From positions 414,199 to 478,198 of the forward strand of contig NZ_JAKFHA010000002.1 of assembly GCF_021502675.1 (NCBI RefSeq): 64,000 bases of DNA, written 5' to 3'. The stretch's first letter is position 1; the number at the start of each line of letters is the position of its first letter. This DNA is from Yinghuangia soli (GTDB taxonomy: Bacteria > Actinomycetota > Actinomycetes > Streptomycetales > Streptomycetaceae). Position numbers and translations under genes: made by a program. This document shows positions 5,738-23,653 of this stretch, in pieces. The notes under the pieces were generated by a model that saw only the letters and a program-made list of their open reading frames with translations, had not been told where the DNA came from and ran no database searches.

Positions 5738-6961
5738 TCAGACCACCGGGGCCAGCCGGTCCAGCACGCGGCCGGCGATCTCCTCGCCGATCGGCAGCGA
5801 CGCGGTGGCCGCCGGGGACGGGGCGTTGAGCACGTTGACGATGCGCTCGCCGCCGGTGAAGAGGAAGTCGTCGACCAGTTCGCCGTCCGGGCGCACCGCC
5901 TGGGCGCGCACTCCGGCCGGGGCGCGGACCAGGTCGTCGGCGGTCACCGCGGGCAGCATGCGCTGCACGGCCTTGGTGAACGCGGGCTTGGCGAGCGAGC
6001 GCAGCATCTCGCCGGCGCCGTACCGCCAGTGCCGCTTCGCGATGTGCCACATGCCGGGGTAGGCCAGCGTCGCGGCCAGCTCGCGCGGGCTGGCCTGCGC
6101 CCACGAGTAGCCCTCGCGGCGCAGCGCGAGCACCGCGTTCGGGCCGACGTGCACATCGCCGTGGATGCCCCGGGTCAGGTGCACCCCGAGGAAGGGGAAC
6201 GCCGGGTCGGGGACCGGGTAGACCAGGCCGTTGACCAGACCGCGGCGGTGCGGCGCGAGCTCGTGGTACTCGCCGCGGAACGGCACGATGCGCACCGGCG
6301 GCGGCGCGCCGCCCTCGGCGCGGGCCGCCATCGCCGCGATGCGGTCGCTGTACAGCCCCGCGCAGTTGACCACCACCCGGCCGCGCACCTCGCCGAGCCG
6401 GGTCTGCACCACCACCTCGCGCGGGTGCACGGCCAGCGCGGTGACGCCTGCCCCGGTGCGCAGCGAGACGCCGTGCTTGTGCAGCAGGTCGACCAGCGTG
6501 CGGCAGACCTCCGCGTAGTCGACGATGCCGGTGGTGCCGACGTGCAATCCGGCGATCGCGCGGATGTTCGGCTCGTGCTCGCGGATCTGCTCCGGCGTCA
6601 GCTCCTGCACCGGGACGCCGTTCGCCTCGCCGCGCTCGAACAGCGTCTTCATCCGGCCCAGTTCGGACGGATCGGTGGCCACCACGAGCTTGCCGGTCAC
6701 CTGGTGCGCGATGCCGTGCTCGCTGCAGAACTCCACCATCCGGCGGGCGCCTTGCACCGCGAAGCGGGCCTTGAGGCTGCCCGGCTTGTAGTAGAGCCCG
6801 GAGTGGATCACCCCGCTGTTGCGGCCGGTCTGGTGCGCGGCCCAGGAGGTCTCCTTCTCCAGGACGGCGACGGTGGTCCCGGGGGAGCGCCGGGTCAGGG
6901 CGTACGCGGTGGACAGACCGACGATCCCGCCGCCGATCACGATCACGTCGTACCTGAGCAT
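5738..6961 (-). CDS. lhgO: L-2-hydroxyglutarate oxidase
   Basis: A 407-aa FAD-dependent oxidoreductase of the DAO fold. The FAD dinucleotide loop GGGIVG is at 10-15, then LEKE-type ribose contact and the family signature TGRNSGVIHSGLYY near 58-72. It matches the LhgO/YgaF family, which oxidises L-2-hydroxyglutarate to 2-oxoglutarate and passes electrons to the respiratory chain; it is probably membrane-associated. The start at the ATG 6961 lies after a GGGGAG/GAAGG element; an upstream in-frame extension would precede this ribosome binding site. Length equals the usual ~400 aa. It is upstream of trmB with a 43-bp gap. Confidence 0.92.
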   Translation of the reverse strand: MLRYDVIVIGGGIVGLSTAYALTRRSPGTTVAVLEKETSWAAHQTGRNSGVIHSGLYYKPGSLKARFAVQGARRMVEFCSEHGIAHQVTGKLVVATDPSELGRMKTLFERGEANGVPVQELTPEQIREHEPNIRAIAGLHVGTTGIVDYAEVCRTLVDLLHKHGVSLRTGAGVTALAVHPREVVVQTRLGEVRGRVVVNCAGLYSDRIAAMAARAEGGAPPPVRIVPFRGEYHELAPHRRGLVNGLVYPVPDPAFPFLGVHLTRGIHGDVHVGPNAVLALRREGYSWAQASPRELAATLAYPGMWHIAKRHWRYGAGEMLRSLAKPAFTKAVQRMLPAVTADDLVRAPAGVRAQAVRPDGELVDDFLFTGGERIVNVLNAPSPAATASLPIGEEIAGRVLDRLAPVV

Positions 6962-7754: not shown

Positions 7755-9278
7755 TCAGGCGGTGATGCCGATGCTGTTGCGGACCTGGTCGGCGAAGCTG
7801 CGCACGACCGGCTCGCGGGGGTGGGCCGCCTGCAGGCCGGTGACCAGGTCGCGGACGTACGCGGTGTTGCGGGCGGAGTGTACGCGCTGGGCCACCGCGA
7901 GGGCGCGCAGCCCGGCGCCGCAGGCGGCGTCCAGGTCGCCGGCCGCCAGTTCGGCCTGCGCGCCGACCGCGAGGCGCAGGCCGTGCGAGCGCACGAACGC
8001 CTCGCTCTGCCCGGCCAGCGCGGCCGCGGTGAAGCGCCGGGTCTGGTCCGGCAGTTTGAGGTCGCGGTAGCACTCGGCGCCGTCCGCGCAGAAGCGGTCG
8101 TAGGAGAAGAAGTCGATCCACTCGGGGTCGTCGTCGCCGGGCCGCGCCCGTTCCAGATGGGTCTCGGCGGCGTTGAGCGAGCGCGCACAGGCGGCCGGGT
8201 CGCCGGCCCGGGCGTGCGCGCGGGCCTCGACCAGGTGCAGGAAGCCGGTGACCTTGGCGGTGGCGATGCCGCGGTTGCGCTCCACCGCGGCCTGCGCGAG
8301 GTCCACCGCGGTCTGCGGGTGGCCGCGGTAGGTGGCCTGCAGGCTCATGGTGGCCAGCACGTAGCCGCCCAGCGGCACGTCGGCGGCCGCGCGGGCCAGC
8401 CGCAGTGCCTGGATGTAGTAGCGCTGGGCTATCTCGTGCTGCCCGGTGTCGAAGGCCATCCAGCCGGCCAGCCGGGACAGTTCGGAGGTGGCGCCGAACA
8501 ACTGGCGGCCCACCGCGTCCTGGTAGGTCCCGCGCAGCAGCGGCGAGGCCTCGGCGCGCAGGCATTCGGGCACCATGGAGGCGCGCCAGTCGCCGCCGCC
8601 GTACTTGCTGTCCCAGCGCCGTGCCTCGGCCGCCGCCTCCCGGAGCTTTGCCACATCCGCCTGGCCGACCTTGCGGTCCGTGCCGCGGTGTTCGGCCAGT
8701 GCGTCCGCCGGGGTGATGAGCCATCGCGCCAGAGGCGTCGCGAAGGCGGTGACGGCGAATGTCCCGGTCAGGAATTCGCGGCGGTTCACGTGGTCGTGCC
8801 TCCACAGGTCGGTGGCCTTGAGGACGGCTTCGGAGAGGTCGCGCGGGAAGGACAGGCCGAGCTCCGGGTCGGTCGGGCCGCTCTCCTCCAGCCCGATTTC
8901 GTCCAACGGCACCGGCCGGCCCAGGCGTTCGGCCAGCACGGCGGCGATCAGGTGGGGCACCGGGCCCTGCGGGGTCATGCCCTTGCCGACCCAGCGGGCC
9001 ACCGACGTCTTGTCGTACCGCAGGGTCAGGCCGCTGGCCGCGCCCAGGTCGTTGACCCGGCGCGCCAGGCCGGCGTTGCTGACCCCGGCGCGGACCAGGA
9101 GTCCGCCGAGGCGCTCGTTGGGGCCGCGGGCGGCCGCGGACCGGCCGGTGTGGTCCGGGGGTTCGGGCACCGGGCGGGCCTCGCGCGGGCGCGGCAGTGC
9201 GCGGGGCAGGCGGGCAGGCGCCGCCGCGGGTCGGAGGGCGGCTTGCCCTGACCCGTCGCGCTTAGGACCACTGCGCAT
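7755..9278 (-). CDS. NsdA-like sporulation/antibiotic regulator
   Basis: A 507-aa protein resembling Streptomyces NsdA, a negative regulator of differentiation and antibiotic production. Residues about 57-130 hold the conserved [26 protein letters not shown] segment and the [10 protein letters not shown] motif, a helix-turn-helix-like part. The remainder is a helical TPR-like repeat region (about 200-500) with many A/L-rich pairs. An internal RREFL motif followed by a hydrophobic stretch looks like a Tat signal but is internal and shared by the family. The ATG at 9278 follows a GGGGG tract. Whether this is NsdA itself or a paralogue cannot be decided here; S. coelicolor has several. It is divergent from the cyclase-like gene. 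Confidence 0.85.
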
Positions 9279-11774: not shown

Positions 11775-12533
11775 ATGCCGCCACGGAACCGCCTGATGCG
11801 CGACGAGATCCGCGCCGCCGCCACCCGGCTGTTCGGGGTGCGCGGCCTGGGCGCGGTGACCCTGCAGGAGATCGCCGACGAGCTGGGCGTCTCCAAGGCC
11901 GCGCTCTACCACTACTTCCCGAACAAGGACGCCCTGGTCCGGGCCATCTTCGAGGACTGGGCCCGGGTCGGCGTGGACCGCATCGACGCGGTCGTGGCGC
12001 TGGACGAGCCCGCCTCGGTCCGGCTGCGCCGCATGATCGAACTGCACGTGCTGGGCCTGACGCGCGACCTCGACCTGTACCGGCTGGGCTTCCGCGACGA
12101 GGACCAGCTGCCGGACGGCGCCCGCGAGGTGTTCGCCAAGTTCAAGCGCGACGTCGACAGCGCGGTGCGCACCGTGGTCCGGGAAGGCGTGGCGAGCGGC
12201 GAGTTCCTGCCCGTCGATCCCAAGATCGCGGGTTTCGCCGCGATCGGCATGTGCAACTGGATGTTCAAGTGGTACCGGCCGGACGGCGAGTACGAGGCGC
12301 ACGAACTGGCCGCCATGCTGGCCCGCTTCGCGCTCGGCGGGCTGCTGCGCCGCGACCATCCGCCGGCCGGCGCCCCCGGCGCCGCCCTCGACCGTGCCGC
12401 GCTCATCGCCGAGATGGCCGCCGACCTCCAGCGCGAGGTCGACGCCCTGCGGGCCGCGGTGCACCACCAGAACGTCGGCAATCCGTCCGCGCCGCACCGC
12501 ACACCCGAGCCGAGTCAGGGGGAGCAGTCATGA
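11775..12533 (+). CDS. TetR/AcrR-family transcriptional regulator
   Basis: A 252-aa regulator. The N-terminal helix-turn-helix lies at about 28-58 (VTLQEIADELGVSKAALYHYFPNK region). The C-terminal half is an all-helical ligand domain with a FadR/KstR-like helical character and a TetR_C-type Trp/Met-rich segment. ATG 11775 follows AGGG; the upstream in-frame ATG at 11712 overlaps the promoter. Its stop overlaps the next gene's start in an ATGA, so it is translationally coupled to the acyl-CoA dehydrogenase. It likely represses this catabolic operon and responds to an acyl-CoA or acid; the effector is inferred. Confidence 0.9.
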   Translation: MPPRNRLMRDEIRAAATRLFGVRGLGAVTLQEIADELGVSKAALYHYFPNKDALVRAIFEDWARVGVDRIDAVVALDEPASVRLRRMIELHVLGLTRDLDLYRLGFRDEDQLPDGAREVFAKFKRDVDSAVRTVVREGVASGEFLPVDPKIAGFAAIGMCNWMFKWYRPDGEYEAHELAAMLARFALGGLLRRDHPPAGAPGAALDRAALIAEMAADLQREVDALRAAVHHQNVGNPSAPHRTPEPSQGEQS

Positions 12534-13675
12534 GGGACCGCCATCTCGAGCCCGAGCACATCGCGTTCCGCGAGAGTGCCCGCGAGTTCGTCCGCCGCGA
12601 AATCGTGCCGTTCCACGAGCAGTGGGAAAAGGCCGGCATCGTGGACCGCGAGCTCTGGCGCAAGGCCGGCAAGCAGGGCCTGCTGGGCATCGACGTGGAC
12701 GAGGAGTACGGCGGCGGCGGGGTGCGCGACTTCCGCTACCTCATGACGCTGTCCGAGGAGATCGTCCGGGCCGGGGCGTCCGGCGTCGGCTTCGGCCTGC
12801 ACAACGAGGTGGTGGCGCCGTACCTCAACGACCTGGCCACCGACGAGCAGAAGGCGCGCTGGCTGCCCGGCTTCTGCTCCGGCGAGATCATCACCGCGAT
12901 CGCGATGACCGAGCCGGGCGCGGGCAGCGACCTGCAGGGCATCCGCACCACCGCGGTACGCGACGGGGACGCCTGGGTGCTCAACGGCGCCAAGACCTTC
13001 ATCACCAACGGCATCCACGCCGACCTGGTGATCGTGGTGGCCAAGACCGACCCGGAGGCCAAGGCCAGCAAGGGCATCAGCCTGCTCGTCGTGGAGCGCG
13101 GCATGGCCGGCTTCGAGCGCGGCCGCAACCTCGACAAGGTCGGGATGAAGGCGCAGGACACCGCCGAGCTGTTCTTCTCGGACGTCCGGGTGCCGGCCGC
13201 GAACCTGCTCGGCGACGTGAACCGCGGCTTCTACCACCTCATGCACAACCTGCCGCAGGAGCGGCTCGGCATCGCCACCGCCGCGGTGGCCGGCGCCGAG
13301 TCGGTGTTCGAGCACACGCTGGAGTACTGCAAGACGCGCACCGCGTTCGGGCAGCCCATCGGGTCGTTCCAGAACACCCGCTTCGAACTCGCCGAGATGG
13401 CCACCGAACTGGACATCGCCCGCACGTACATCGACGACTGCGTGATGCGGCACCTGGACGGCGAGCTGGACGCGGTGGCCGCGTCGAAGGCCAAGTGGTG
13501 GACCACCGACCTGCAGAAGCGCGTCGTGGACCGCTGCCTGCAACTGCACGGCGGGTACGGCTACATGATGGAGTACCCGGTCGCCAAGGCCTTCGTGGAC
13601 AGCCGCGTGCAGGCGATCTACGGCGGCACCAACGAGATCATGAAGGAGATCATCGGGCGCTCGCTCGGGGTCTGA
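12530..13675 (+). CDS. Acyl-CoA dehydrogenase, LCAD-like
   Basis: A 381-aa flavoprotein with all three ACAD domains: helical N-domain, beta middle domain with AMTEPGAGSD (125-134) and FITNG (157-161), and C-terminal helical bundle ending IYGGTNEIMKEIIGR. The Glu of the medium-chain family in the YEGT position is Gly here. The candidate base is Glu244 in QERL, as in long-chain and isovaleryl-CoA dehydrogenases. It oxidises an acyl-CoA to the trans-2-enoyl-CoA and passes electrons to ETF. Start ATG overlaps the TetR stop by 4 nt and follows a GGGGGAG ribosome binding site. A 72-bp gap precedes the AMP-ligase remnant. Confidence 0.95.
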   Translation: MRDRHLEPEHIAFRESAREFVRREIVPFHEQWEKAGIVDRELWRKAGKQGLLGIDVDEEYGGGGVRDFRYLMTLSEEIVRAGASGVGFGLHNEVVAPYLNDLATDEQKARWLPGFCSGEIITAIAMTEPGAGSDLQGIRTTAVRDGDAWVLNGAKTFITNGIHADLVIVVAKTDPEAKASKGISLLVVERGMAGFERGRNLDKVGMKAQDTAELFFSDVRVPAANLLGDVNRGFYHLMHNLPQERLGIATAAVAGAESVFEHTLEYCKTRTAFGQPIGSFQNTRFELAEMATELDIARTYIDDCVMRHLDGELDAVAASKAKWWTTDLQKRVVDRCLQLHGGYGYMMEYPVAKAFVDSRVQAIYGGTNEIMKEIIGRSLGV

Positions 13676-13747
13676 CGGGTCTTCACGCCCCGATCCGGGT
13701 GCACGACGATGCTTACCGTTGGCCGGTTCCGGCGGGAGGGGACCGTC

Positions 13748-14536
13748 GTGGAGCATGCACGCAACCTGCTGGCCTCCTTGTGGCGCGCCGCCGACCACTG
13801 GCCGGAGCGCCTGGCCGCGTACCGGCGCGGCCCGGCCGGGCCCGAGGACCGCGCGCTGACCTGGCGGCAGCTGGAGGACCGGGTGGTGGCGGTGGCGGCC
13901 GGGCTGATGGCCGGCGGCGTGCTGCCCGGGGACCGCATCGGCGTCATGGTGCGGCCGTGCGTCGAGTGGACGGTGCTGGACCTCGCGGTGCTGGCCGCGG
14001 GGGCGGCGACGGTGCCGATGCCGCCCGGCCAGGGGATCGCGGCGTGCCACCGCGCGCTGCGCGGCACCGCACCGCGCATGGTGTTCGTGGAGGGCCCGGC
14101 GGACGCGATGACCGTGGCGCGGGCCACCGGCGGGGCGGCCGATCCGCCCCAGGAGATGTTCGTGCTGCGGGAAGGCGGACTGCAGGTGCTGACGTCGTGG
14201 GCGGAGCCGACCGACCGGGATGCGGTGCGGCCGTACGCCGAGCGCGTCGCCACATCCGCGGTGGCGCTGTTCGACCGCGGCGCGGCACCCGCGACGCACG
14301 GCCCGGCCCGGCCGCTCACGCACGCCGAGGTCGGCCGGGCGGCCCTGCGGCTCGGCACGCTGCACGGCGTCTCCGGGCCGCGCGGCACGGACCCCGGGCG
14401 GCTGCCCGGGCCCGCGGTCACGGTCGGTCCGCTGCACCGGCTGCTGCCGCACCTCATGCAGTTCGCGGCGCTGGAGGCGGGCCGCTCGCTGGCCTTCCCC
14501 GGCCGCCCGGCCCGACCGTACGCCGCGGCGGGGTGA
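13748..14536 (+). pseudogene. Truncated AMP-ligase N-domain, probable pseudoenzyme
   Basis: A 262-aa protein resembling only the first part of long-chain acyl-CoA synthetases. The N-terminal ‘LTWRQLEDRV…GDRIGVMV…TVLDLAVLAAGAATVPM’ region (about 38-100) fits the ANL superfamily. Where the ATP-binding TSGTTGxPKG loop should be, the sequence is degenerate around residues 170-190. The protein then ends after a segment resembling the LPLAH-type region, with no C-terminal catalytic domain. Full members are about 600 aa. The GTG at 13748 has GGGAGGGG upstream. Codon use is normal, so it may be a retained binding protein instead of a decaying gene. The family is known; its lost catalysis is inferred. 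Confidence 0.65.
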
Positions 14537-14567
14537 GCGCCCGGAGCCGCTGCCGCACACCTTGACC

Positions 14568-14648
14568 GACCCGCGACCACTGCGACGACTGCGACGCTGC
14601 TGTCTGAATACCTGGCACGACCCGCGGCGCCTGCGACGACCCGCGACC
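14568..14648 (+). repeat. Direct repeats upstream of the second dehydrogenase
   Basis: GACCCGCGACC occurs at 14568-14578 and 14638-14648. CTGCGACGAC occurs at 14580-14589 and 14631-14640, with a shorter TGCGACG copy between. The copies flank a 70-bp segment in the only long gap (145 bp) of the operon. They may mark a regulator site or an internal duplication. Confidence 0.45.
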
Positions 14649-14681
14649 TACCTGCACCGATCAGCGAGGGGATGGGCACGA

Positions 14682-15989
14682 ATGGCCTGGGACTTCTCCA
14701 CCGAACCGGAGTTCGAGGAACAACTGGAGTGGATGCGCGGATTCGTCCGCACCGAGATCGAACCCCTGGAAACGGTCGACCTCGACGACGCCGCGATGCG
14801 CGCGGTGACCGCTCCGCTCAAGGAGGAGGTCAAGGCCCGCGGCCTGTGGGCCGCGCACCTGCCGCCGGACCTGGGCGGCCAGGGCTTCGGGCAGGTCCGG
14901 CTGGGCCTGATGCACGAGATCCTCGGGCGCACCCCGTACGCCCCGGTGGTGTTCGGCAACAACGCCCCCGACTCGGGCAACGCCGAGCTGCTCGCGCACG
15001 GCATCGCCGCGTCCGGGCGCACCTGGCAGCGCGAGAAGTGGCTGGAGCCGCTGCTGGAGGGGCGCATCCGCAGCGCGTTCTCGATGACCGAGCGGGACAC
15101 CGCCGGCTCCGACCCCACGCTGCTGGCCACCCGCGCGGTGCGGCACGGCGACGAGTGGGTGATCGACGGCCACAAGTGGTTCACCTCGAACGGCTCGGTC
15201 GCCGACATCCTCATCGCCATGGTGGTCACCGACCCGGAGGCCAACCCGCACAGCCGGGCCTCCATGATCGTGGTCCCGGCGGACACCCCGGGCGTGGAGA
15301 TCGTGCGCGACGTGGCGACGCTGGAGGACCCGGGGCGCACCGAGCGCCTGCACGGGTTCGGCGGCCACGCGGAGATCCGCTACCACGCGGTGCGCGTGCC
15401 CTACGAGAACCTGGTCGGCCACGAGGGCGACGGCTTCAAGCTGGCCCAGCTGCGGCTCGGCCCGGGCCGCATCCACCACTGCATGCGCTGGCTCGGGCAG
15501 GCCCAGCGGGCGCTCGACATGCTGTGCGAACGCGCGCTGTCGCGCTATGCGCACGGCTCGCTGCTGGCCGAGAAGCAGACCGTGCAGAACTGGATCGCCG
15601 ACTCGTACGCGGGCATCCAGGCGGCCCGGCTCATGACGCTGCACGCGGCCTGGCGGATGGACCGCGACGGCGCGCCGGCCGCGCGCACCGAGATCTCCGC
15701 GATCAAGTTCTACGGCGCGCAGGTGCTGTACGACGTGATCGACCGGGCCATCCAGATCCACGGCTCGCTCGGGTTCTCCACCGACCTGCCGCTGGAGCAG
15801 ATGTACCGCTACGCGCGAGCGGCCCGCATCTACGACGGCCCCGACGAGGTGCACCGCGTGAGCGTGGCCCGCCAGGTGCTGCGCAACTACCGTCCGGCGG
15901 ACGTGCCCACCGAGCACGTGCCGACCCGGCGCGAGGAGGCCCGCAAGAAGTTCGCGGCCCTGCTCGACACCGCGGAGGGCGACGCGTGA
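14682..15989 (+). CDS. ACAD10/11-type acyl-CoA dehydrogenase
   Basis: A 435-aa acyl-CoA dehydrogenase with the middle-domain FSMTERDTAGSDPT and WFTSNG motifs and the C-terminal YDGPDEVHRVSVARQ signature. That ending places Asp where medium-chain enzymes have Glu, typical of the ACAD10/ACAD11 branch. In animals those enzymes are fused to an aminoglycoside-phosphotransferase-like kinase; here the kinase is the next gene with a 4-nt overlap. The combination is linked to conversion of 4-hydroxyacyl-CoA through a phosphorylated intermediate. ATG 14682 follows GAGGGGA; an ATG at 14672 is in another frame. Confidence 0.93.
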   Translation: MAWDFSTEPEFEEQLEWMRGFVRTEIEPLETVDLDDAAMRAVTAPLKEEVKARGLWAAHLPPDLGGQGFGQVRLGLMHEILGRTPYAPVVFGNNAPDSGNAELLAHGIAASGRTWQREKWLEPLLEGRIRSAFSMTERDTAGSDPTLLATRAVRHGDEWVIDGHKWFTSNGSVADILIAMVVTDPEANPHSRASMIVVPADTPGVEIVRDVATLEDPGRTERLHGFGGHAEIRYHAVRVPYENLVGHEGDGFKLAQLRLGPGRIHHCMRWLGQAQRALDMLCERALSRYAHGSLLAEKQTVQNWIADSYAGIQAARLMTLHAAWRMDRDGAPAARTEISAIKFYGAQVLYDVIDRAIQIHGSLGFSTDLPLEQMYRYARAARIYDGPDEVHRVSVARQVLRNYRPADVPTEHVPTRREEARKKFAALLDTAEGDA

Positions 15990-17053
15990 CCGAGCTCTCC
16001 CCTGCTCCGGCGGGCGTGGACGCGGACGCGGTCACCGGCTGGCTGGCCGCCCGCGTCCCGTCCCTCGCCCCGCCGCTCGCCTTCACCCCGGTCGTCGGCG
16101 GGCACTCGAACCTGACGTACGTGGTCGCCGACCAGGGCGGCCCGCAGTGGGTGCTGCGCCGCCCGCCGCTCGGCCATGTGCTGGCCACCGCCCACGACAT
16201 GGGCCGCGAGCACCGCATCCTGGCGGCGCTCGGCGGGGACCGGACCCCGGTGCCGGTGCCGCCGGTGGTGGGCCTGAGCCCGGACGACTCCGTCAACGGG
16301 GCGCCGTTCTACGTCATGGAGTTCGTCGACGGCGCGGTGCTGCGCAACGAGGCCGCCGCGACCCGGGAACTCGATGCGGCCGGGCGGCGCCGGGCCGGCG
16401 AGCAGCTCGCCGACACGCTCGCCGCGATCCACGCGGTCGACATCGATGCCGTGGGGCTGGGCGACCTGGGCCGCCGCGAGGACTACATCGGCCGCCAACT
16501 GCGGCGCTGGCACCGGCAATGGGATGCCACCCGGGTGCCCGGCATCCCGGAGATCGACGAGGTGCACGCCGCGCTGGCCGCGTCGGTCCCCGAGCAGCAG
16601 GGCGCCACGATCGTGCACGGCGACTTCCGGCTCGACAACTGCATCATCGGCCCGGACGGCACCGTACGCGCGGTCCTGGACTGGGAGTTGTGCACGCTGG
16701 GCGATCCGCTCGCGGACGTCGGCACGACGCTCGTCTACTGGGTCGAGCGCGGCGAGGCCGCCGAGCTGCTGCCGTCCGACGGCACCGCCTCGGAGGGCTT
16801 CCCGGACCGCGCCGCGTTCTGCGCCCGGTACGCGGCGGCCACCGGCCGGGACCTGTCCGGCATCGCCTGGTACACCGCGTTCGCCTATTGGCGGCTGGCC
16901 TGCATCCTGGCCGGCGTGCTGGACCGCTACACCGCGGGCGCGATGGGCGACCAGGCCGGCGACGGCGGGGCGTCGCGGTTCAGCAGGGAAGGCCTGGCCG
17001 GTCTCGCGGCGAAGGCCCGCAGCGTCCTCGAGGAAGGGAAGTTCGTGTCATGA
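15986..17053 (+). CDS. APH-like kinase (ACAD10/11 or LvaA type)
   Basis: A 355-aa protein-kinase-fold phosphotransferase of the aminoglycoside phosphotransferase family. The catalytic loop HGDFRLDN is at 211-218 with Asp213 and Asn218, and D232-W-E corresponds to the metal-binding DFG. The N-lobe nucleotide region GGHSNLTYVV is at 38-48. The GTG at 15986 overlaps the preceding dehydrogenase stop (GTGA) and follows GGAGGG. Its partners make antibiotic phosphorylation unlikely. Relatives fused to ACAD10/11 and LvaA of Pseudomonas phosphorylate 4-hydroxyacyl-CoA. The substrate here is inferred. Confidence 0.9.
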   Translation: MTELSPAPAGVDADAVTGWLAARVPSLAPPLAFTPVVGGHSNLTYVVADQGGPQWVLRRPPLGHVLATAHDMGREHRILAALGGDRTPVPVPPVVGLSPDDSVNGAPFYVMEFVDGAVLRNEAAATRELDAAGRRRAGEQLADTLAAIHAVDIDAVGLGDLGRREDYIGRQLRRWHRQWDATRVPGIPEIDEVHAALAASVPEQQGATIVHGDFRLDNCIIGPDGTVRAVLDWELCTLGDPLADVGTTLVYWVERGEAAELLPSDGTASEGFPDRAAFCARYAAATGRDLSGIAWYTAFAYWRLACILAGVLDRYTAGAMGDQAGDGGASRFSREGLAGLAAKARSVLEEGKFVS

Positions 17054-17808
17054 CGGTCGACTTCACCGGGAAGACCGCGCTGGTCACCGGGGCGAGCCGG
17101 GGGATCGGGCTGGGCATCGCGGCCGAACTGGCCGCGTGCGGTGCCAACGTGGTCCTGACCGCGCGCAAGAAGGAGGCGCTCGACGAGGCGGTCGCGCAGC
17201 TCGGGGGCCCCGGGCGGGCGATCGCGGTGGCCGGCAAGGCGGACGACCCCGAGCACCGGGCCGAGGCGGTCGCGGCCGCCGTGGAGACCTTCGGCTCGCT
17301 GGACGTGCTGGTCAACAACGCGGGCATCAACCCGCACTTCGGGCCGCTGATCGAGGCGGACCTCTCCGCGGTGCGCAAGATCTTCGAGGTCAACACGGTC
17401 GGCGCGCTGGGCTGGACGCAGGCGGCGTACACGGCATGGATGCGCGAGCACGGCGGCAGCGTGCTGAACGTCGCCTCGATCGGCGGAATCGTGGCCGGCC
17501 CCTTCATCGGGGCGTACAACGTGAGCAAGGCCGCGCTCATCCACATGACCCGGCAGCTCGCCGCCGAACTCGGCCCCGCGGTCCGGGTGAACGCGGTGGC
17601 GCCGGCGGTCGTCAAGACCCGGTTCGCCGAGGCGCTGTACGAGGGGCGCGAGGAGGAGGCCGCGTCGGCCTATCCGATGAAGCGGCTGGGTGTGCCGGAG
17701 GACGTGGCCAAGGCGGCCGCGTACCTGCTCTCCGACGACGCGTCGTGGATCACCGGCGAGACGCTGGTCGTCGACGGCGGCATCTCGCTGGCCGGCGGGG
17801 TGGGCTGA
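17050..17808 (+). CDS. SDR-family oxidoreductase (FabG-like)
   Basis: A 252-aa classical SDR with TGASRGIG (13-20), NNAG (89-92), catalytic Ser143, Tyr156 and Lys160, and a conserved C-terminal TGETLVVDGG. ATG 17050 overlaps the kinase stop codon by 4 nt, so it is the last translationally coupled gene of the operon. FabG-type enzymes interconvert 3-oxo- and 3-hydroxyacyl-thioesters; the LvaD position in levulinate catabolism is also an oxidoreductase that reduces the 4-oxo group. Both substrate options are inferences. A hairpin follows at 17977. Confidence 0.92.
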   Translation: MTVDFTGKTALVTGASRGIGLGIAAELAACGANVVLTARKKEALDEAVAQLGGPGRAIAVAGKADDPEHRAEAVAAAVETFGSLDVLVNNAGINPHFGPLIEADLSAVRKIFEVNTVGALGWTQAAYTAWMREHGGSVLNVASIGGIVAGPFIGAYNVSKAALIHMTRQLAAELGPAVRVNAVAPAVVKTRFAEALYEGREEEAASAYPMKRLGVPEDVAKAAAYLLSDDASWITGETLVVDGGISLAGGVG

Positions 17809-18154
17809 GCGCGGCACCCGCCGAGGCGGCCGGACGCGGGCCGTACGCGGGGCCGGACACGGGGACGGACGCCGCGTACTGGTCATCAGGACGTCATCTG
17901 CTCCTAACAAGCGCCGGATAGCCTGCGGGCATCCGGCGGGCAGCGCAGCGGCGTCCGACCGGGAACCGAGGCCGGTCATGGGCAAGGGTCCGCCGGGGGG
18001 CGCCCTTCCCATGACCCCTTCGCCGCCGCGCTGCGCGGCCGGGCGGGTGATCCTCGGCCTACGCGTGATGGTAAATGTGATGAATTGACCATTTTGCGGT
18101 ACCAGCCCTTCCGACCCTTCGGCGCCGCCGATCGGGCGACGAGGAGGGCCACCC
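17809..18154. other. Intergenic region with hairpin, stress-gene promoter
   Basis: Of 346 bp, 17977-18013 is a hairpin: CATGGG…AAGGG pairs with CCCTT…CCCATG around a GC-rich loop with one bulged base, a likely terminator of the upstream operon. From 18060 to 18095 the sequence is locally AT-rich and probably carries the universal stress protein promoter. No gene is visible. Confidence 0.55.
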
Positions 18155-18607
18155 ATGACACAGGACGAGCCGCGCGGGGTCGTGGTCGGCGTCGACGGGT
18201 CCGATCCGGCGCGCCGCGCGCTGGACTGGGCGATGACCGAGGCGCAGCTGCGCGGGCTGCCCCTGTACGTGGTGGGCGCCGCCCCTCCCGCCGGTGCCTA
18301 CGCGGCGATGGCGCCCGGGTCGGTCTACGTCGAGGACATGAACGCCGCGCTGGAGGCGGTCCGCGGCGAGACCGAGGCGATGGTCGGGGACGTGAACCGG
18401 GGCCGCGACCAGCCGTTCGAGGGCGAACTGCACGTCAAGATCTACTCCGGGACCGCCACCGAGGTGCTGCTCGGCCTGTCCGAGCGCCATGTGCTGGTGG
18501 TGGTCGGCTCGCGCGGCACCGGCGGCTTCTCGCGGCTGCTGCTCGGCTCGGTCAGCACCGCGATCGTGCACCACTCGGCGTGCCCGGTGCTCGTCGTCCG
18601 CGAGTAG
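18155..18607 (+). CDS. Universal stress protein
   Basis: A 150-aa single-domain UspA-fold protein. The N-terminal VVVGVDGSDPARRALDWA and the ATP-binding loop GSRGTGGFSRLLLGSVS (near 125-141) are intact, so it is predicted to bind ATP and be of the nucleotide-binding subclass. The role is in stress or dormancy survival, by family. ATG 18155 is preceded by GAGGAGG at 18141-18147, seven nt away. It is convergent with the sigma-factor fusion, 24 bp apart. Confidence 0.93.
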   Translation: MTQDEPRGVVVGVDGSDPARRALDWAMTEAQLRGLPLYVVGAAPPAGAYAAMAPGSVYVEDMNAALEAVRGETEAMVGDVNRGRDQPFEGELHVKIYSGTATEVLLGLSERHVLVVVGSRGTGGFSRLLLGSVSTAIVHHSACPVLVVRE

Positions 18608-18631: not shown

Positions 18632-20464
18632 TCACGTGCAGCGCAGCCGGGCGTCCGCCCAGTCCGCGTGGTCGTCGCCGTTGCCGTCGCCCGCATCGGT
18701 GACCCGGAGTTCGAGCATGCGGCGCCCGGTCAGGTCGACCGAGACCGGGACCGCGGGGGCGCCGCCGCGCCGCACGCCGGAATCGGCCAGCAGGATGCCG
18801 TCCGCGTACACCTGGAAGCGCACCGAGCCGCGCCCGCCGGTCTCGTCGTCGACGCCGACGGCGGATGTGAACGCCGAGCACTCGCCGTCGAGGCGCACCA
18901 CGATGCGCGAGGCGGCGTGCGCACCGACGCCGCCGTAGTAAGGCCTGCCCGCTATCTGCATGGTGCGGCCGTCCCAGATGCCGCTGCCGCCGTTACTGGA
19001 CGCCAGTTCGACCGGCCCCCAGCCGTTCGTCTCCGACTCCCGCCAGATGTCCTCCAGGCGGTACCACCAGAATTCGTCGGCGCTGTCGTCGGTCGCCGGG
19101 GCGAGACCCGGGTCGGGCAGGGTGGGGAGCACGGCCTTGCTGGGCGGCGCGGACGTCGAGGACGGACCCCGCGCGGGGGTCGTGGCCGAGGTGTTCGGCG
19201 CGGTGCGGGTGTCCGGCGGGCTGCCGGGCGTGCTCTCGACGGACTGCGCGGGGAGCAGCGGAATAGCCGGGAACACGGAGGGCCGGCCGGTGTGGGGGAG
19301 GGGCGAAGCGGACGCCCAGGGCTTCGCACCGGGCCCGTTCGCGGTCGGCCGGTGCGGCGGTCCGGGTTTGCCGCTGCGGGGAGTCGCGGGCGCGGAGGCC
19401 GCCGCGGGCGGGGCTTCGCGGCCGGGCAGCGGCGGCAGCAGTGCGGCGGCGTACAGCGCTCCGCCGGCGAGGGCGAGCCCGGCGCCTGCGACCGTGCTTG
19501 CGGAGGCCAACCCGCCGAGGGTCACGCCGGCGCCGGCGGCAGTTGCCGTACTTGCTCCTGCTGCGCTTGCCGCACCGGCACCTGCTGCACTGGCACTTGC
19601 CGCGGCTGCACTGGCTGCGCCGGCACCCGCCGCGGCGGCGGCTCCGCCGGCCGCGGTCCCGCCCGGGAGCAGCATGAGCCCCGCACCGCCCAGCAGTGCT
19701 GGGGCGACCAGCGCCCGCATGCAGCGGCCGATGTCGTCCAACTCCCGCCGCAGCTCGCGGCATTCGGGGCAGCCGGACAGATGCCGCTGCATCTCGTGCC
19801 GGGCCCGCAAACCCAAGGCACCGTCCAGGAACGCACCCATACGCCCCAGATGCACGCGGCACTCCGCCGCCGTGGCAGCGCTGTTGACGTGCGCCTGCAG
19901 GAACGCCCGGCGCAGGCCTGCGCGCGCCCGTACCGCCAGCGCGGCCACTGCGTTGGGCGAGACCCCGAGCAGCGGGGCTATTCGGGCGGGCGGATCCCCT
20001 TCGACGGCGGTGTGCCAGAGCACCGCCTGCCAGCGTTCCGGCAGCGACGCGTACGCGCGGCGCACCAGTGCGTGGTCGAGTCCGGCCGCCAGCGGGTCGG
20101 ACGGCGTGCCGCGCTCGGTGAGGTCCTGCGCCGACTCGTCCAGTGGCACGACGCGGCGGCCGGTGCGCGACCATTCGACCGCCAGCCGCCGCAAGGTGGT
20201 CAGCAGGTAGGCGCGGACCGCCTCCCGCGGGCCGCCGCCGGCCCGCAGCACTTCCAGGACGCGCGTGAACACCTCGCCGGTCAGGTCCTCCGCGGTGTCG
20301 CGGTCGCGGGCGCAGCGGCGCGCGGCCCGGCGGACCGCGTCGACGTGCCGGGCGTAGAGCAGCGCGTACGCCTGCCGGTCGCCGCCGCGGGTGCGCAGCA
20401 CGAGCTCCGCGTCCGGCGGCGCCGCAGTGTCCTCGGTGCCGTCCGGCGCGTCGTGCTCCCTCAT
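18632..20464 (-). CDS. ECF sigma factor fused to anti-sigma and NPCBM
   Basis: A 610-aa multidomain protein. Residues 20-100 resemble sigma-70 region 2 (RDTAEDLTGEVF) and 130-190 region 4 (LPERWQAVLW, then a helix-turn-helix GVSPNAVAAL). Residues 200-245 form a zinc-finger anti-sigma domain (C202, H228-x3-C232-x2-C235). A long Ala/Gly-rich segment (265-345) contains one or two membrane helices; 345-460 is a Pro/Ser/Thr-rich wall spacer. The last 140 residues match an NPCBM carbohydrate-binding domain (WGPVELASSNGG…IAGRPYYGGVGAHA). It appears to be a one-protein envelope sensor. Similar C-terminally extended ECF sigma factors are known in actinobacteria. Confidence 0.9.
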   Translation of the reverse strand: MREHDAPDGTEDTAAPPDAELVLRTRGGDRQAYALLYARHVDAVRRAARRCARDRDTAEDLTGEVFTRVLEVLRAGGGPREAVRAYLLTTLRRLAVEWSRTGRRVVPLDESAQDLTERGTPSDPLAAGLDHALVRRAYASLPERWQAVLWHTAVEGDPPARIAPLLGVSPNAVAALAVRARAGLRRAFLQAHVNSAATAAECRVHLGRMGAFLDGALGLRARHEMQRHLSGCPECRELRRELDDIGRCMRALVAPALLGGAGLMLLPGGTAAGGAAAAAGAGAASAAAASASAAGAGAASAAGASTATAAGAGVTLGGLASASTVAGAGLALAGGALYAAALLPPLPGREAPPAAASAPATPRSGKPGPPHRPTANGPGAKPWASASPLPHTGRPSVFPAIPLLPAQSVESTPGSPPDTRTAPNTSATTPARGPSSTSAPPSKAVLPTLPDPGLAPATDDSADEFWWYRLEDIWRESETNGWGPVELASSNGGSGIWDGRTMQIAGRPYYGGVGAHAASRIVVRLDGECSAFTSAVGVDDETGGRGSVRFQVYADGILLADSGVRRGGAPAVPVSVDLTGRRMLELRVTDAGDGNGDDHADWADARLRCT

Positions 20465-20507: not shown

Positions 20508-21290
20508 TCACGCCACCCGCAGCCCGCCCCGGCGGCCGCCCGCGCCGCCGTCCGCCCAGTCCTGCTCGATGTGCACGAAGGACGGCCGCAGGGTCGGCAC
20601 CGAGGCGTGGCCGGTGGCCGCCACGATCGGGTCGTACGGGGCCAGGGCGGCCAGGTGGACCAGGGCCGGCAGGGCGTCGGTGCGGTCCGCCGCGACGGCG
20701 AGGCGGCCGTCGTCGAGCAGGTGCGCGGGCGTCCCGAAGATCTCCATGACGTGCTGGGCGACCAGCAGCGTCAGCCGCAGCCGCTCGTGCGCCGGGTACG
20801 CGCCGATCTGCGGCTCGACCGCCACCACGACCGGCCGGCCGGCCGGCTCGGCGGCCCCGCGGCGCATCAGGTGCCGGCGCAGCAGGGCCTCGGTGGGCAG
20901 CTCGGAGACCGGGTCGTAGCCCTCGACCACCGGGATCCGGGCGTGCCGGGCGGCGGCGTAGCCGGACACCACCGAGTCCGAGGCGCCGCGCCCGACCGCG
21001 GTCAGGAACAGCAGGTCCAGGTCGGACAGCGCGGCCAGCAGCGGGATGTCGGCGTCGGCCCGGTCACGGGCCAGCTGCTCGCAGGCGCCGCGAATCCGGC
21101 CGGGCCGGAAGAACGCCGCCACGGCGGCCTCGGCCCCGGCGGTCAGCCACGGTGCGTACCGTGGCCAGCCGGCCGCGGTGCTGCGCCGCCGCCACTCGGC
21201 GAGCAGCCAGGCGATGTGCCGGTCCTCTGCGGTGCCGGGCCGGTCGGCGGAGGTGTAAGGGTTCGCGGGGTGCTGAGGGTTCGCGGTCAT
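20508..21290 (-). CDS. Conserved hypothetical protein, 260 aa
   Basis: A 260-aa soluble protein that I do not recognise. An N-terminal helical segment (HIAWLLAEWRRRSTAAGWPRYAPWL) precedes a predicted alpha/beta region with DIPLLAALSDLDLLFL and VVVAVEPQIGAYPAHE. The C-terminus is Gly/Arg-rich. It lies 43 bp upstream of the sigma-factor fusion in the same direction and might be co-transcribed with it. The ATG at 21290 is chosen from a clear reading-frame start. A CRP-like palindrome lies 56-71 bp upstream. Confidence 0.7.
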   Translation of the reverse strand: MTANPQHPANPYTSADRPGTAEDRHIAWLLAEWRRRSTAAGWPRYAPWLTAGAEAAVAAFFRPGRIRGACEQLARDRADADIPLLAALSDLDLLFLTAVGRGASDSVVSGYAAARHARIPVVEGYDPVSELPTEALLRRHLMRRGAAEPAGRPVVVAVEPQIGAYPAHERLRLTLLVAQHVMEIFGTPAHLLDDGRLAVAADRTDALPALVHLAALAPYDPIVAATGHASVPTLRPSFVHIEQDWADGGAGGRRGGLRVA

Positions 21291-21345
21291 ACTCAGTGAG
21301 AGTGGGCAGACCGGGAATCGTGACGCGGTCCCGCGGGTGACTTCA

Positions 21346-21361
21346 TGTGATCCACGTCACA
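21346..21361. promoter_or_regulatory. CRP-like palindrome TGTGA-N6-TCACA
   Basis: The perfect site TGTGATCCACGTCACA fits both the E. coli CRP consensus and the Streptomyces Crp pattern GTG-N6-GNCAC. It lies 56 bp upstream of the start of the 260-aa gene and 24 bp past the end of the LysR gene, in a region with no other features. Chance occurrence in GC-rich DNA is possible. Confidence 0.6.
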
Positions 21362-21384
21362 CCAGATGGCCCCCGGGTGTGCTC

Positions 21385-22305
21385 TCAGGTGGCCCGCAGC
21401 GGGGGCCGCAGGAACCACTCGCGGCACACCGCGGCGAACGCGGCGGCCCGGCGGGTCGGCCGCACCCCGCGGGCCTGCGCGAGGATCAGCGGCAGCGGCG
21501 GCAGGTCGTCGGTCAGCTCCAGCGCCACCACGCGGCCGCCGTCGTACGTGGCGTCGGTGGCCGGGCGGTGGTTGAGGATCGCGAAGCCCTGGCCCGCCGC
21601 GACCAGGGCCCGGACCAGCTCGGTGCTGCGGCTGCGGAAGCGTATGCGCGGGCTGACCCCGGCCCGCCGGGCCAGCGAGGCGAAGTAGTCGCGGCTGTGC
21701 GGCAGGTCCAGCAGGATGAGCGGGTCGCCGGCCAGCGCGTGCAGCGAGACGGACTTCTCGCCGGCCAGCGGGTGGCCGGGCGGCACTATCGCGTGCGGCG
21801 GCACCTGGGCCAGCAGTTCCCCGTCCAGCGCCTCGGCGCCGTTGCCCAGGTCGTACATCAGCGCGAGTTCGCAGCCGCCTTCCAGGAGGCGGTCGCGCAG
21901 GCTGCCGTCGTCCGCGCCGTCGGCCATCCGGACCTCGACGTCCGGGAAGCGGGCGGCGAACTCGGCGAGCAGCGGCGGCAGGCAGAACGGCGCGATGGGG
22001 TCCGCGCATCCGAGGCTGAGCCGGCCGCGCAGCGAACCGCCGAACGCCTTGGCGCTCGCGGCCATCTCGTCGGCGTGGCCGAGGAGTCCGCGCGCCTCGC
22101 CGAGGAAGCGCTCGCCCGAGGTGGTCAGCGACAGGCCCTTGGCGTGGTGCCGGACCAGCAGTTGCACGCCGAACTCGCGTTCCAGGTGCGCGATCGCCGC
22201 GGAGATCGCGGACTGCGACACCATCAGCTCGCGGGAGGCCCCGGTCATGCTGCGGTGCTGCGCGGCGGCCACGAAATAACGCAGTTGGACCAGGGTGAAG
22301 TTCAT
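21385..22305 (-). CDS. LysR-family transcriptional regulator
   Basis: A 306-aa LysR regulator: winged helix-turn-helix at about 1-60 (FTLVQLRYFVAAAQHRSMTGASRELMVSQSAISAAI) and a periplasmic-binding-protein-like effector domain from about 90 to 300. The start is the ATG at 22305, which gives the canonical MNFTLVQL beginning; an in-frame ATG at 22344 would add 13 residues. No structural gene is divergent from it within 160 bp, so its target is not obvious. In the syntenic region recalled from S. coelicolor I remember a different gene (NADH dehydrogenase) near atrA, so this may be a lineage difference. Confidence 0.9.
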   Translation of the reverse strand: MNFTLVQLRYFVAAAQHRSMTGASRELMVSQSAISAAIAHLEREFGVQLLVRHHAKGLSLTTSGERFLGEARGLLGHADEMAASAKAFGGSLRGRLSLGCADPIAPFCLPPLLAEFAARFPDVEVRMADGADDGSLRDRLLEGGCELALMYDLGNGAEALDGELLAQVPPHAIVPPGHPLAGEKSVSLHALAGDPLILLDLPHSRDYFASLARRAGVSPRIRFRSRSTELVRALVAAGQGFAILNHRPATDATYDGGRVVALELTDDLPPLPLILAQARGVRPTRRAAAFAAVCREWFLRPPLRAT

Positions 22306-22465: not shown

Positions 22466-23257
22466 TCAGCGCGGGCCGCCGCGGAGGAAGAGCGTGTCCA
22501 GCTCGTCCTGGGTGAAGGGCTTGCCGGGCAGCGGCGAGGGCCGGTCCGCGCGGAGGCCGTCGAGGACGACCTCCAGATAGCGGGCGGCCACCGTCAGGCG
22601 CTGGGCCTTGGGCAGTCCGGGCGGAGGCAGGAGGCAGGACAGGAGCAGCGAGATGTCCGCATCGGACACGTCCTCGCGCAGGTAGCCCTCGTCCTTGGCG
22701 CGGTCCACCAGGTGGCAGACCGCCTCGTTGAGTGCGGCGCGGCCGGCCCGCATCTCCTCGGTGACCGGGACTCGGCCGCTCAGGGCCGGGAACAGCCGCC
22801 CGGCGCCGGAGGCGACCGCGCGCCGCAGGTAGCGGTTGAGCGCGGCCCAGGCGTCCGGTTCCTCGGCGAGTGCGGCCACCGCCTCGGCGGTGAGCCGGCC
22901 GGTCTCGGTGATCATGATGCGCTGGACCAGCGACTCCTTGCCGGAGAAGCGCCGGTAGATGGTGCCGACGCCGACGCCCGCGCGGCGGGCGATCTCCTCC
23001 ATCGGGGCGTCGTACCCCAGTTCGCCGAACACCTCGCGTGCTGCGCGCAGCACTTGTTCGAGGTTGCGGCGTGCGTCGGTGCGGAGTTGGGTGGTGGATT
23101 CCGGATCGGCGGGCCCCGGCGGCGCGGCGACCGCGGCGCGGCCCCGTTGCGGCCGGCGTGCCGACGGGATGACGGTGCCGCGCGATGCGCCGGCCGTCCG
23201 TCCCGCGGTGCCCCGATCCCGTGCGAGTTCGTTCGAATATGTACGCGAAGCGCCCAT
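22466..23257 (-). CDS. atrA: TetR-family regulator, AtrA-like
   Basis: A 263-aa TetR regulator with an unusually long basic N-terminal extension (about 55 residues), then TTQLRTDARRNLEQVLRAAREVFGELGYDA and a helix-turn-helix at about 86-110 (MEEIARRAGVGVGTIYRRF). The C-terminal ligand domain contains VASGAGRLFP. It resembles S. coelicolor AtrA, an activator of actII-ORF4 that also acts on sugar uptake and development genes, and its neighbours (a SpoIIE-like protein, MFS and MarR) match the AtrA neighbourhood. ATG 23257 follows GGGGGAAG. Gene name is by recalled synteny and partial sequence only. Confidence 0.75.
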   Translation of the reverse strand: MGASRTYSNELARDRGTAGRTAGASRGTVIPSARRPQRGRAAVAAPPGPADPESTTQLRTDARRNLEQVLRAAREVFGELGYDAPMEEIARRAGVGVGTIYRRFSGKESLVQRIMITETGRLTAEAVAALAEEPDAWAALNRYLRRAVASGAGRLFPALSGRVPVTEEMRAGRAALNEAVCHLVDRAKDEGYLREDVSDADISLLLSCLLPPPGLPKAQRLTVAARYLEVVLDGLRADRPSPLPGKPFTQDELDTLFLRGGPR

Positions 23258-23653
23258 TTACTTCCCCCGAAGGCAAGCGTTCGTGTCCCGTCTCGGACCG
23301 CTCAGTCATTGCCAGTTCGCCGAGCGTACCCGACCTGCCGATCGGCCAGAAGCGGAATCCGACGTAACGGTTGTGGAGGAAGCGTGTATTGCTGACGCTG
23401 AGTCAGCATGGCGGGGCGTTCGGGTGCCGCGTGCGGACACTGCGTCGACATGGCGTGTTCGGGCGTCACCGCTGTGTGACCGGGGTCACGAAGACGTCGC
23501 GGACATTGCGGGCACGTACCGATGAGTCCCCCGAACGGGGGGTCCGCTGCGCGGTCCCGATTCCCCTGTGGCCGAGTTTCGCCCACACTGGTGATGTCAC
23601 TAGAGGTAAACCTCACGGCACATAGTGTGAAGAACTCATCAGGAAGCAGGCGG
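23258..23653. promoter_or_regulatory. Divergent promoter region with operator-like palindromes
   Basis: 396 bp separate the AtrA-like gene and the SpoIIE-like gene. Inverted repeat TGCTGAC-N5-GTCAGCA occupies 23390-23408, a candidate operator for AtrA or another regulator. From 23560 to 23653 the sequence is AT-richer and carries a nested palindrome at 23584-23629. No coding feature is supported. Confidence 0.5.
23584..23629. promoter_or_regulatory. Nested palindrome before the SpoIIE-like gene
   Basis: CACACT (23584-23589) and AGTGTG (23624-23629) are inverted copies that enclose a second palindrome GAGGT-AA-ACCTC (23603-23614), almost concentric with it. It lies just upstream of the candidate TTG start at 23654, so it may be an operator or an mRNA structure. 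Confidence 0.45.

Follow-up and report, generated by a model that had tools for sequence, protein, structure and literature searches.

Extracytoplasmic function (ECF) sigma factors that are fused to their own anti-sigma factor are already known from Streptomyces. The ECF52 architecture has been described for SCO4117 of S. coelicolor (accessible text of PMC5826349), and ECF48 and ECF53 fused sigma factors have been reviewed alongside it (accessible text of PMC8999054). SCO4117 is the characterised member of ECF52/53, with neither its signal nor its protease named in the accessible parts of these two papers. Release by cleavage is a proposal for ECF48, ECF52 and ECF53 and, in the available sections of PMC8999054, is demonstrated only for another fused sigma factor, IutY of Pseudomonas putida. 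Here we analysed a stretch of 64,000 nucleotides (nt) from Yinghuangia soli (NZ_JAKFHA010000002.1, positions 414,199 to 478,198; hereafter the window), in which a fused sigma factor gene is preceded by a partner gene encoding a degenerate GGDEF protein. The original prediction, a sigma factor held by an anti-sigma domain and a sensor of the same chain, was the right reading, but as a published architecture (ECF52, SCO4117) it is no surprise. The conserved degenerate GGDEF neighbour appears to be new, and is a concrete candidate for the missing inside input: a GGDEF-like partner of ECF52/53 was not found in the literature by title and abstract, with an earlier mention in ECF classification papers being possible, and a Crp-type promoter of a fused sigma operon was likewise not found in the literature searched.

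The fused sigma protein and its gene block

The sigma gene is a single open frame of 610 codons on the minus strand, and because homologues cover nearly its full length it is no chance frame of high-GC DNA. The following parts were recognised along the chain.

18632–20464, minus strand: fused ECF sigma / zinc anti-sigma / membrane anchor / NPCBM protein, 610 residues (open reading frame, Pfam, TIGR02937, homologues)
20153–20359, minus strand: sigma region 2, residues 36–104 (PF04542; AlphaFold2 helices 18–101)
19919–20068, minus strand: sigma region 4, residues 133–182 (PF08281, TIGR02937; AlphaFold2 helices 131–195)
19757–19861, minus strand: zinc anti-sigma (ZAS) domain, residues 202–236 (PF13490)
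19691–19720, minus strand: short hydrophobic helix, residues 249–258 (AlphaFold2)
19421–19714, minus strand: 98-residue Ala/Gly/Ser-rich stretch without D, E, K, R, H, N or Q, residues 251–348 (composition)
19436–19492, minus strand: marginal candidate membrane helix, residues 325–343 (hydropathy; position of a stronger helix in relatives; absent from the AlphaFold2 model)
19079–19420, minus strand: Pro/Ser/Thr-rich spacer, residues 349–462 (composition, low AlphaFold2 confidence)
18635–19069, minus strand: NPCBM/CBM51 head with Cys529 and Cys609, residues 466–610 (PF08305, structural match)

Comparison with Pfam gave Sigma70_r2 at residues 36–104 (33.2 bits, above the cut-off of 24), Sigma70_r4_2 at residues 133–182 (23.3 bits, slightly below the cut-off of 25.7) and zf-HC2 at residues 202–236 (35.9 against a cut-off of 22.2), and the NCBI sigma70-ECF model TIGR02937 was passed with 54.7 against 42.9. 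ZAS domains carry the zinc motif H/C-x25-H-x3-C-x2-C, which is satisfied here by C202-x25-H228-x3-C232-x2-C235, with all four ligands invariant in 81/81 aligned rows. AlphaFold2 modelled residues 11–250, comprising the sigma and anti-sigma parts, with block values of the predicted local distance difference test (pLDDT) of 82–97, the linker 101–130 excepted. The short helix 249–258 (block pLDDT 84 and 76) would be the fourth helix of the anti-sigma domain, not a first membrane helix. Of the domain chain originally proposed for this protein, sigma regions 2 and 4, the wall spacer with its low pLDDT, the Ala/Gly-rich region and the NPCBM domain are recovered. The zinc site had been given as H228-x3-C232-x2-C235, which omits its first ligand, C202, and the membrane helix, claimed together with the Ala/Gly-rich region, is marginal and was not modelled by AlphaFold2.

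For the head, NPCBM was matched at residues 470–607 with 154.8 bits against a cut-off of 23.9 (E 1.8e-45), and the predicted structure has the fold of carbohydrate-binding module (CBM) family 51, with Z 19.2 to 7jrm and 18.4 to the methyl-galactose complex 2vmg. Both Cys529 and Cys609 are kept in 32/32 NPCBM rows, which would suit an extracellular disulphide. In this genome the sigma protein's head was the sole NPCBM match found, and two further sigma-zinc-membrane fusions are encoded there, one with a short, Cys-containing end (L099) and one ending in a Big_9 immunoglobulin (Ig) domain (L100). Among the ten proteins examined for their heads, other relatives carry DUF642 (L008) or DUF11 (L049), and no head was recognised in L005, L016, L032, L050, L055, L075 and L099. 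The head therefore looks exchangeable on a fixed chassis. Separately, the sister genome G001 encodes a secreted-looking protein (L096, 6688–8412), with lectin-like repeats by eye. Its C-terminal NPCBM domain shows 50% identity to the head of the sigma protein, and a fused sigma gene with an Ig-type-like C-terminal part lies 4 kb away; this protein is a possible source for head swaps.

The surroundings of the gene were compared in 80 loci, the best-scoring of 564 confirmed relatives and an uneven sample, on which all counts out of 36 and 44 below are based. A tree of the sigma and zinc part (90 rows, among them 44 Streptomyces-type, 36 non-Streptomyces-type, 2 Ig-type and 7 of the b and g4 types) puts the window protein beside the 44-row Streptomyces NPCBM-type clade, in which NPCBM was found in 33 rows and not in 11, several of the latter being truncated at a contig end. 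In the window the block reads MarR – MFS – PP2C – TetR – sigma – Asn synthase – the gene at 7755–9170 – the gene at 5738–6961 – trmB-like – PrsW, and this order and orientation match the fetched Streptomyces loci. Among the best 80 loci we counted PP2C in 42, MFS and MarR in 41 each, TetR in 37, Asn synthase in 31 and PrsW in 16, numbers that depend on coverage as many loci end inside the block. Two of the block genes are listed here.

22466–23257, minus strand: TetR regulator at the place of atrA (SCO4118), named by position
3123–4730, minus strand: PrsW-type protease (PF13367) of the same conserved gene block, its link to the sigma factor unsupported

Two genes separate the sigma gene from the TetR gene, which occupies the atrA place of the shared block. 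Median identity to the Streptomyces orthologues is 57–60% in the sigma parts, 33% in the anti-sigma part and 37% in the head, and for the anti-sigma domain the 33% compares with 81% among the orthologues themselves. Of the ECF52 features, the domain order, zf-HC2 and a Pro-rich extension with a carbohydrate-binding domain are present, and judged by architecture and gene block the window protein is an ECF52-type sigma factor and the positional orthologue of SCO4117, though a diverged one.

The same locus was found in two sister genomes. The fetched part of the block in G001 is intact, at 70–96% protein identity, but has no sigma gene at its expected place between partner and USP; in G002, neither the partner nor the sigma gene occurs in the interval from LysR to USP. 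Since both sisters lack it, the sigma gene is dispensable at this locus. A stepwise series thus exists at one locus within one genus, namely partner and sigma (window), partner only (G001, L109 9761–11319) and neither (G002, L138 17412–18797), which puts comparison strains for a dispensable module at hand. Apart from this, the window contains a cassette at 11796–18607 (by eye TetR, two acyl-CoA dehydrogenase-like genes, AMP-ligase-like, kinase/APH-like and SDR; USP by Pfam) and a LysR gene at 21385–22305, both inside the block that the fetched Streptomyces loci keep compact. G001 retains the whole cassette and LysR, and the fetched G002 stretch is without orthologues of the genes at 12530–13675 and 13748–14536, with MFS and MarR missing too.

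The degenerate GGDEF partner gene and the operon promoter

Directly upstream of the sigma gene, three further features were identified.

20508–21290, minus strand: partner gene, 260 residues, with a helical N-terminal part and a putative degenerate GGDEF domain
21346–21361, no strand: Crp-type palindrome TGTGA-N6-TCACA before the partner-sigma operon (motif search)
21320–21324, minus strand: GTCAC block, 21–24 nt downstream of the palindrome, in 9/9 aligned promoters

The partner gene is on the same strand as the sigma gene and ends 43 nt before it. When 121 genomes of the family were searched, with at most 21 candidates scored in each, eight copies turned up in six genomes; the six copies outside the window locus and its G001 counterpart are all directly upstream of a fused sigma gene and co-directional with it. 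When a profile made from the eight copies was run against the 9,893 open reading frames of the window and the fetched loci, 34 members were found in the first pass (8 seeds and 26 others) and 40 at convergence. The partner adjoins the sigma gene in 32/36 non-Streptomyces-type rows, all 32 of them divergent, where its conserved part begins 235–522 nt before the first aligned sigma codon; it is missing next to the sigma gene in L005, L008, L023 and L075, with a weak tblastn trace in L023. It also adjoins the sigma gene, co-directionally, in 6/7 rows of the b and g4 types, the seventh (L098 of G002) having a b-type sigma factor with only an N-terminal partner remnant and the promoter. None of the 2 Ig-type rows (L096, L100) has the partner next to the sigma gene. 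An order-wide search of 391 genomes, in which at most six candidates per genome were scored, found the partner in this genome only; order- and family-wide absences of this kind are unreliable, as such searches can miss copies, and profile members turned up in loci of other orders.

Window partner and b-type or g4 partners are 32–37% identical. Foldseek on the AlphaFold2 model of the partner returned GGDEF proteins as its first eight matches, and VIA-align, a second look at Foldseek's list and so not independent of it, gave 50/50 listed entries as GGDEF, with Z 8.7–10.2 over about residues 120–260. The partner alignment contains D-x-LTGLP...YLRTRL, which we take to be the GGDEF entry motif, and at the place of GG[D/E]EF the partners read, for example, LGPSxxAVL, PxGRLMAL or DDGRLAVA, so that the catalytic motif is absent. 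On this model of modest confidence, the partner would be a degenerate GGDEF protein with a GGDEF-like fold, and it is probably not an active cyclase. One partner copy (L112, 9731–10339) shows many W-to-R, L-to-P and C-to-R differences from close relatives with its promoter kept, as if under biased decay.

The palindrome before the operon (TGTGACGTGGATCACA, 21346–21361) is the only match in 64 kb, and none was found in 100 shuffles. It precedes 8/8 partner operons (seven perfect, L111 with one mismatch), and the L098 remnant has it too. The whole genome of 9.7 Mb has 18 perfect TGTGA-N6-TCACA sites, of which two belong to the genome's two partner-sigma operons, and the reversed pattern, used as a control, gave 0 sites. 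The nine aligned promoters are partly close relatives and do not constitute nine independent cases; because the window partner is only 32–37% identical to the b-type and g4 partners, the shared palindrome is more than recent copying. It fits the S. coelicolor Crp consensus GTG(N)6GNCAC (Gao 2012, as quoted in the accessible text of PMC10033298). By eye, with no systematic scan made, no standard ECF promoter pair was seen in 21291–21384. The GTCAC block reads CGTCAC in 5/9 aligned promoters. This resembles CGTC, the ECF –10 element, with no AAC-type –35 element seen at the right distance.

Several other observations were made on such sites. Another GTGA-N6-TCAC palindrome lies at 23476–23489, between the TetR gene at the atrA position and the divergent PP2C gene, and the window holds five GTGA-N6-TCAC sites against 0.72 expected. 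A CTCGAAAGGGTC-like block was seen by eye upstream of the palindrome in L097, L099, L110, L111, L112 and L113 (b-type and g4) and was not seen by eye in the window copy. The 18 perfect genomic sites are a short candidate list for a Crp-type regulon.

Proposed mechanism and its alternatives

Taken together, we lean towards reading this locus as an ECF52-type tethered sigma factor that is gated by a glycan on the outside and by the GGDEF-like partner on the inside, with the expression of the operon set by a Crp-family regulator. In the resting state, the protein's own zinc anti-sigma domain (three helices and the short fourth helix 249–258) would pack on sigma2 and sigma4 of the same chain, and this clamp would keep the sigma part off RNA polymerase. 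One weak membrane helix (325–343) would carry the Pro-rich spacer through the wall to the CBM51 head, which may bind a glycan belonging to the cell envelope itself or to the surroundings. On a change in glycan binding the chain would be cleaved by some protease and the sigma part freed; cleavage is the step that has found the widest acceptance elsewhere. The sigma gene would be the second gene of a likely operon that begins with the degenerate GGDEF gene, and the partner, possibly a receptor for a nucleotide, might form the cytoplasmic half of the switch and act on the sigma and anti-sigma parts. Of these steps the action of the partner is the least secure. A broader and more speculative idea, which we regard as possible but doubtful, is that actinobacterial fused sigma factors are two-sided in general: an envelope reader outside and a dead GGDEF reader of a second messenger inside (cyclic di-GMP or another) would gate the same clamp, cyclic AMP and Crp would set the amount of protein in this lineage, and Streptomyces ECF52 would have lost the inner half. 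As a candidate inside input, the GGDEF-like neighbour would unite the sensing of the envelope, second messengers and the control of developmental genes in one small module.

Several results weigh against the proposed reading. For the fused protein, the whole-chain predicted template modelling score (pTM) is 0.42 and gives no read-out on docking of the anti-sigma domain onto the sigma part; the tree support is weak (88/39) and the branch long (1.24). The partner had no significant sequence match in Pfam, NCBIfam or the PDB, and no Pfam GGDEF match was obtained for partner members (eight members, then ten). Its AlphaFold2 model, built from an eight-row alignment, has a mean pLDDT of 64.8 and a pTM of 0.64, with the second half better; no Foldseek match reached E 0.001 or better, and a Z of about 10 is only moderately above the best Z of 7–8 seen for models without a clear match. 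The profile found the partner in 0/44 Streptomyces-type rows, even at E 10. As these ECF52-type loci are without partner and palindrome, the inner half is not needed by every ECF52. The palindrome was absent, at up to two mismatches, within 700 bp upstream of 33 Streptomyces NPCBM-type sigma genes, and the divergent Pseudonocardiales-type loci do not share it: 4/47 of the other loci have a site at two mismatches, which is about chance (background 0.045 per 500 bp). Both sister genomes lack the sigma gene at this locus, G002 lacking the partner there too; G001 keeps a partner without sigma and G002 a b-type sigma factor with only a partner remnant, so that partner and sigma are not strictly interdependent.

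The membrane topology belongs with these points. Hydropathy was compared in 77 rows, those of the tree's 90 that passed a length and gap filter. The top 19-mer of the window protein, 325–343, has a Kyte-Doolittle value of 1.83, the lowest of all (others 1.85–2.71, median 2.28), and a Hessa-scale sum of 1.46 against a median of 0.0 for the 76 others, of which 6 are equally weak or weaker. The segment has no net flanking charge, and the AlphaFold2 model shows no helix in residues 265–355, where pLDDT is below 50. Structure prediction was thus formally negative for the helix that had been predicted, though AlphaFold2 had no confidence in that stretch. A single membrane helix at 325–343 is kept as the likely reading because the relatives carry a stronger helix at the same place. 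Two membrane helices, which would place the head inside, were also considered, with the first at 251–269. This is less likely: AlphaFold2 shows only the short helix 249–258 there, the relatives' segment is equally poor (median Hessa sum 3.59, n=76, against 3.53), and the two invariant cysteines of the head disfavour that topology as well.

The best-surviving alternative, which we nevertheless judge to be rather unlikely, requires no cleavage: a shape change transmitted by the CBM head or the GGDEF-like partner would loosen the anti-sigma domain, and the sigma factor would work while membrane-bound. This is the alternative of Pinto and Mascher as quoted in the accessible text of PMC5826349, and in that of PMC8999054 ECF41 is described as changing shape without cleavage and ECF42 is predicted to do likewise. 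The long low-confidence stretch 265–462 would permit such a movement. On the other hand, IutY, the closest tested analogue, is cut (PMC8999054, accessible text), and a sigma factor held at the membrane still has to reach its promoters.

We consider it unlikely that the degenerate GGDEF gene only happens to lie beside the fused sigma gene, with no functional link to it. Each gene can indeed persist without the other (L109, L098), and the Streptomyces ECF52-type loci do without the partner, but adjacency is kept across a change of orientation, in 32/36 rows of the divergent clade and in 6/7 of the co-directional group.

Returning to the cleavage step of the glycan-gated reading, PrsW has been suggested as the protease. 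The PrsW-type protease claimed some 14 kb away is present (3123–4730, 13.9 kb from the sigma gene; PF13367, E 9.5e-50), and is a genuine member of its family; no other was found in the assembly (91 contigs, 96% complete). PrsW makes the first cut in RsiW of Bacillus, and it could by analogy make the cut that frees the sigma part here. In Streptomyces it lies in the same block (21/80 loci, all within the Streptomyces-type clade), but it is the whole block that is conserved rather than a PrsW-sigma pair: in G001 and G002 PrsW is in place with the sigma gene gone, of the 31 non-Streptomyces-type loci whose downstream sequence reaches 7.8 kb or more (the 36 rows minus 5 with shorter flanks) none has PrsW in its fetched flanks, and in the four g4 genomes each of the three PrsW genes is either on a different contig from the fused sigma gene or megabases away from it. 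The proximity is inherited synteny, the earlier guess gains no support from it, and we regard PrsW as an improbable candidate.

Least probable of all is that the gene is a decaying, fast-evolving relic of SCO4117 with a failing membrane helix at a locus being lost in the genus, as the long branch, the 33% anti-sigma identity, the helix that is weakest by one scale and the two sisters without the gene might suggest, against which stand the complete open frame, the retained zinc ligands and head cysteines, the perfect promoter palindrome and sigma regions that are still 57–60% identical.

Comparison with known systems

SCO4117 (ECF52; accessible text of PMC5826349) shares with the window protein sigma2/sigma4, the zinc finger, a membrane part (marginal in the window protein), the Pro-rich stretch and a carbohydrate-binding head. 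A further likeness is the position beside a TetR gene in the shared Streptomyces block, SCO4117's own locus lying outside the fetched loci. Unlike SCO4117, the window has an additional upstream degenerate GGDEF gene, a Crp-type palindrome, a LysR gene and a further cassette, and its protein is much diverged from the fetched Streptomyces orthologues. ECF48 and ECF53, as described in the accessible text of PMC8999054, likewise combine a sigma factor, a zinc anti-sigma domain and membrane helices, whereas their outside heads differ; the divergent GGDEF-like neighbour occurs in loci that may be ECF53. IutY of P. putida (ECF243) also carries a sigma factor and a membrane anti-sigma factor in one chain and needs release, but it belongs to Gram-negative surface signalling with Prc and RseP, and neither a zinc finger nor a glycan head is described for it in the available part of that review.

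For the head alone, the CBM51/NPCBM modules of Clostridium perfringens (2vmg, 7jrl) have the same fold, with Z 18.4–19.1. These modules are parts of secreted enzymes and were solved with methyl-galactose or GlcNAc. For the inner input, the nearest parallel is RsiG-sigmaWhiG of Streptomyces, in which the anti-sigma factor is controlled by cyclic di-GMP. To our knowledge its proteins are unrelated to the GGDEF partner and to the fused sigma factor, and the likeness would lie in the principle, as both systems would put a sigma factor under second-messenger control.

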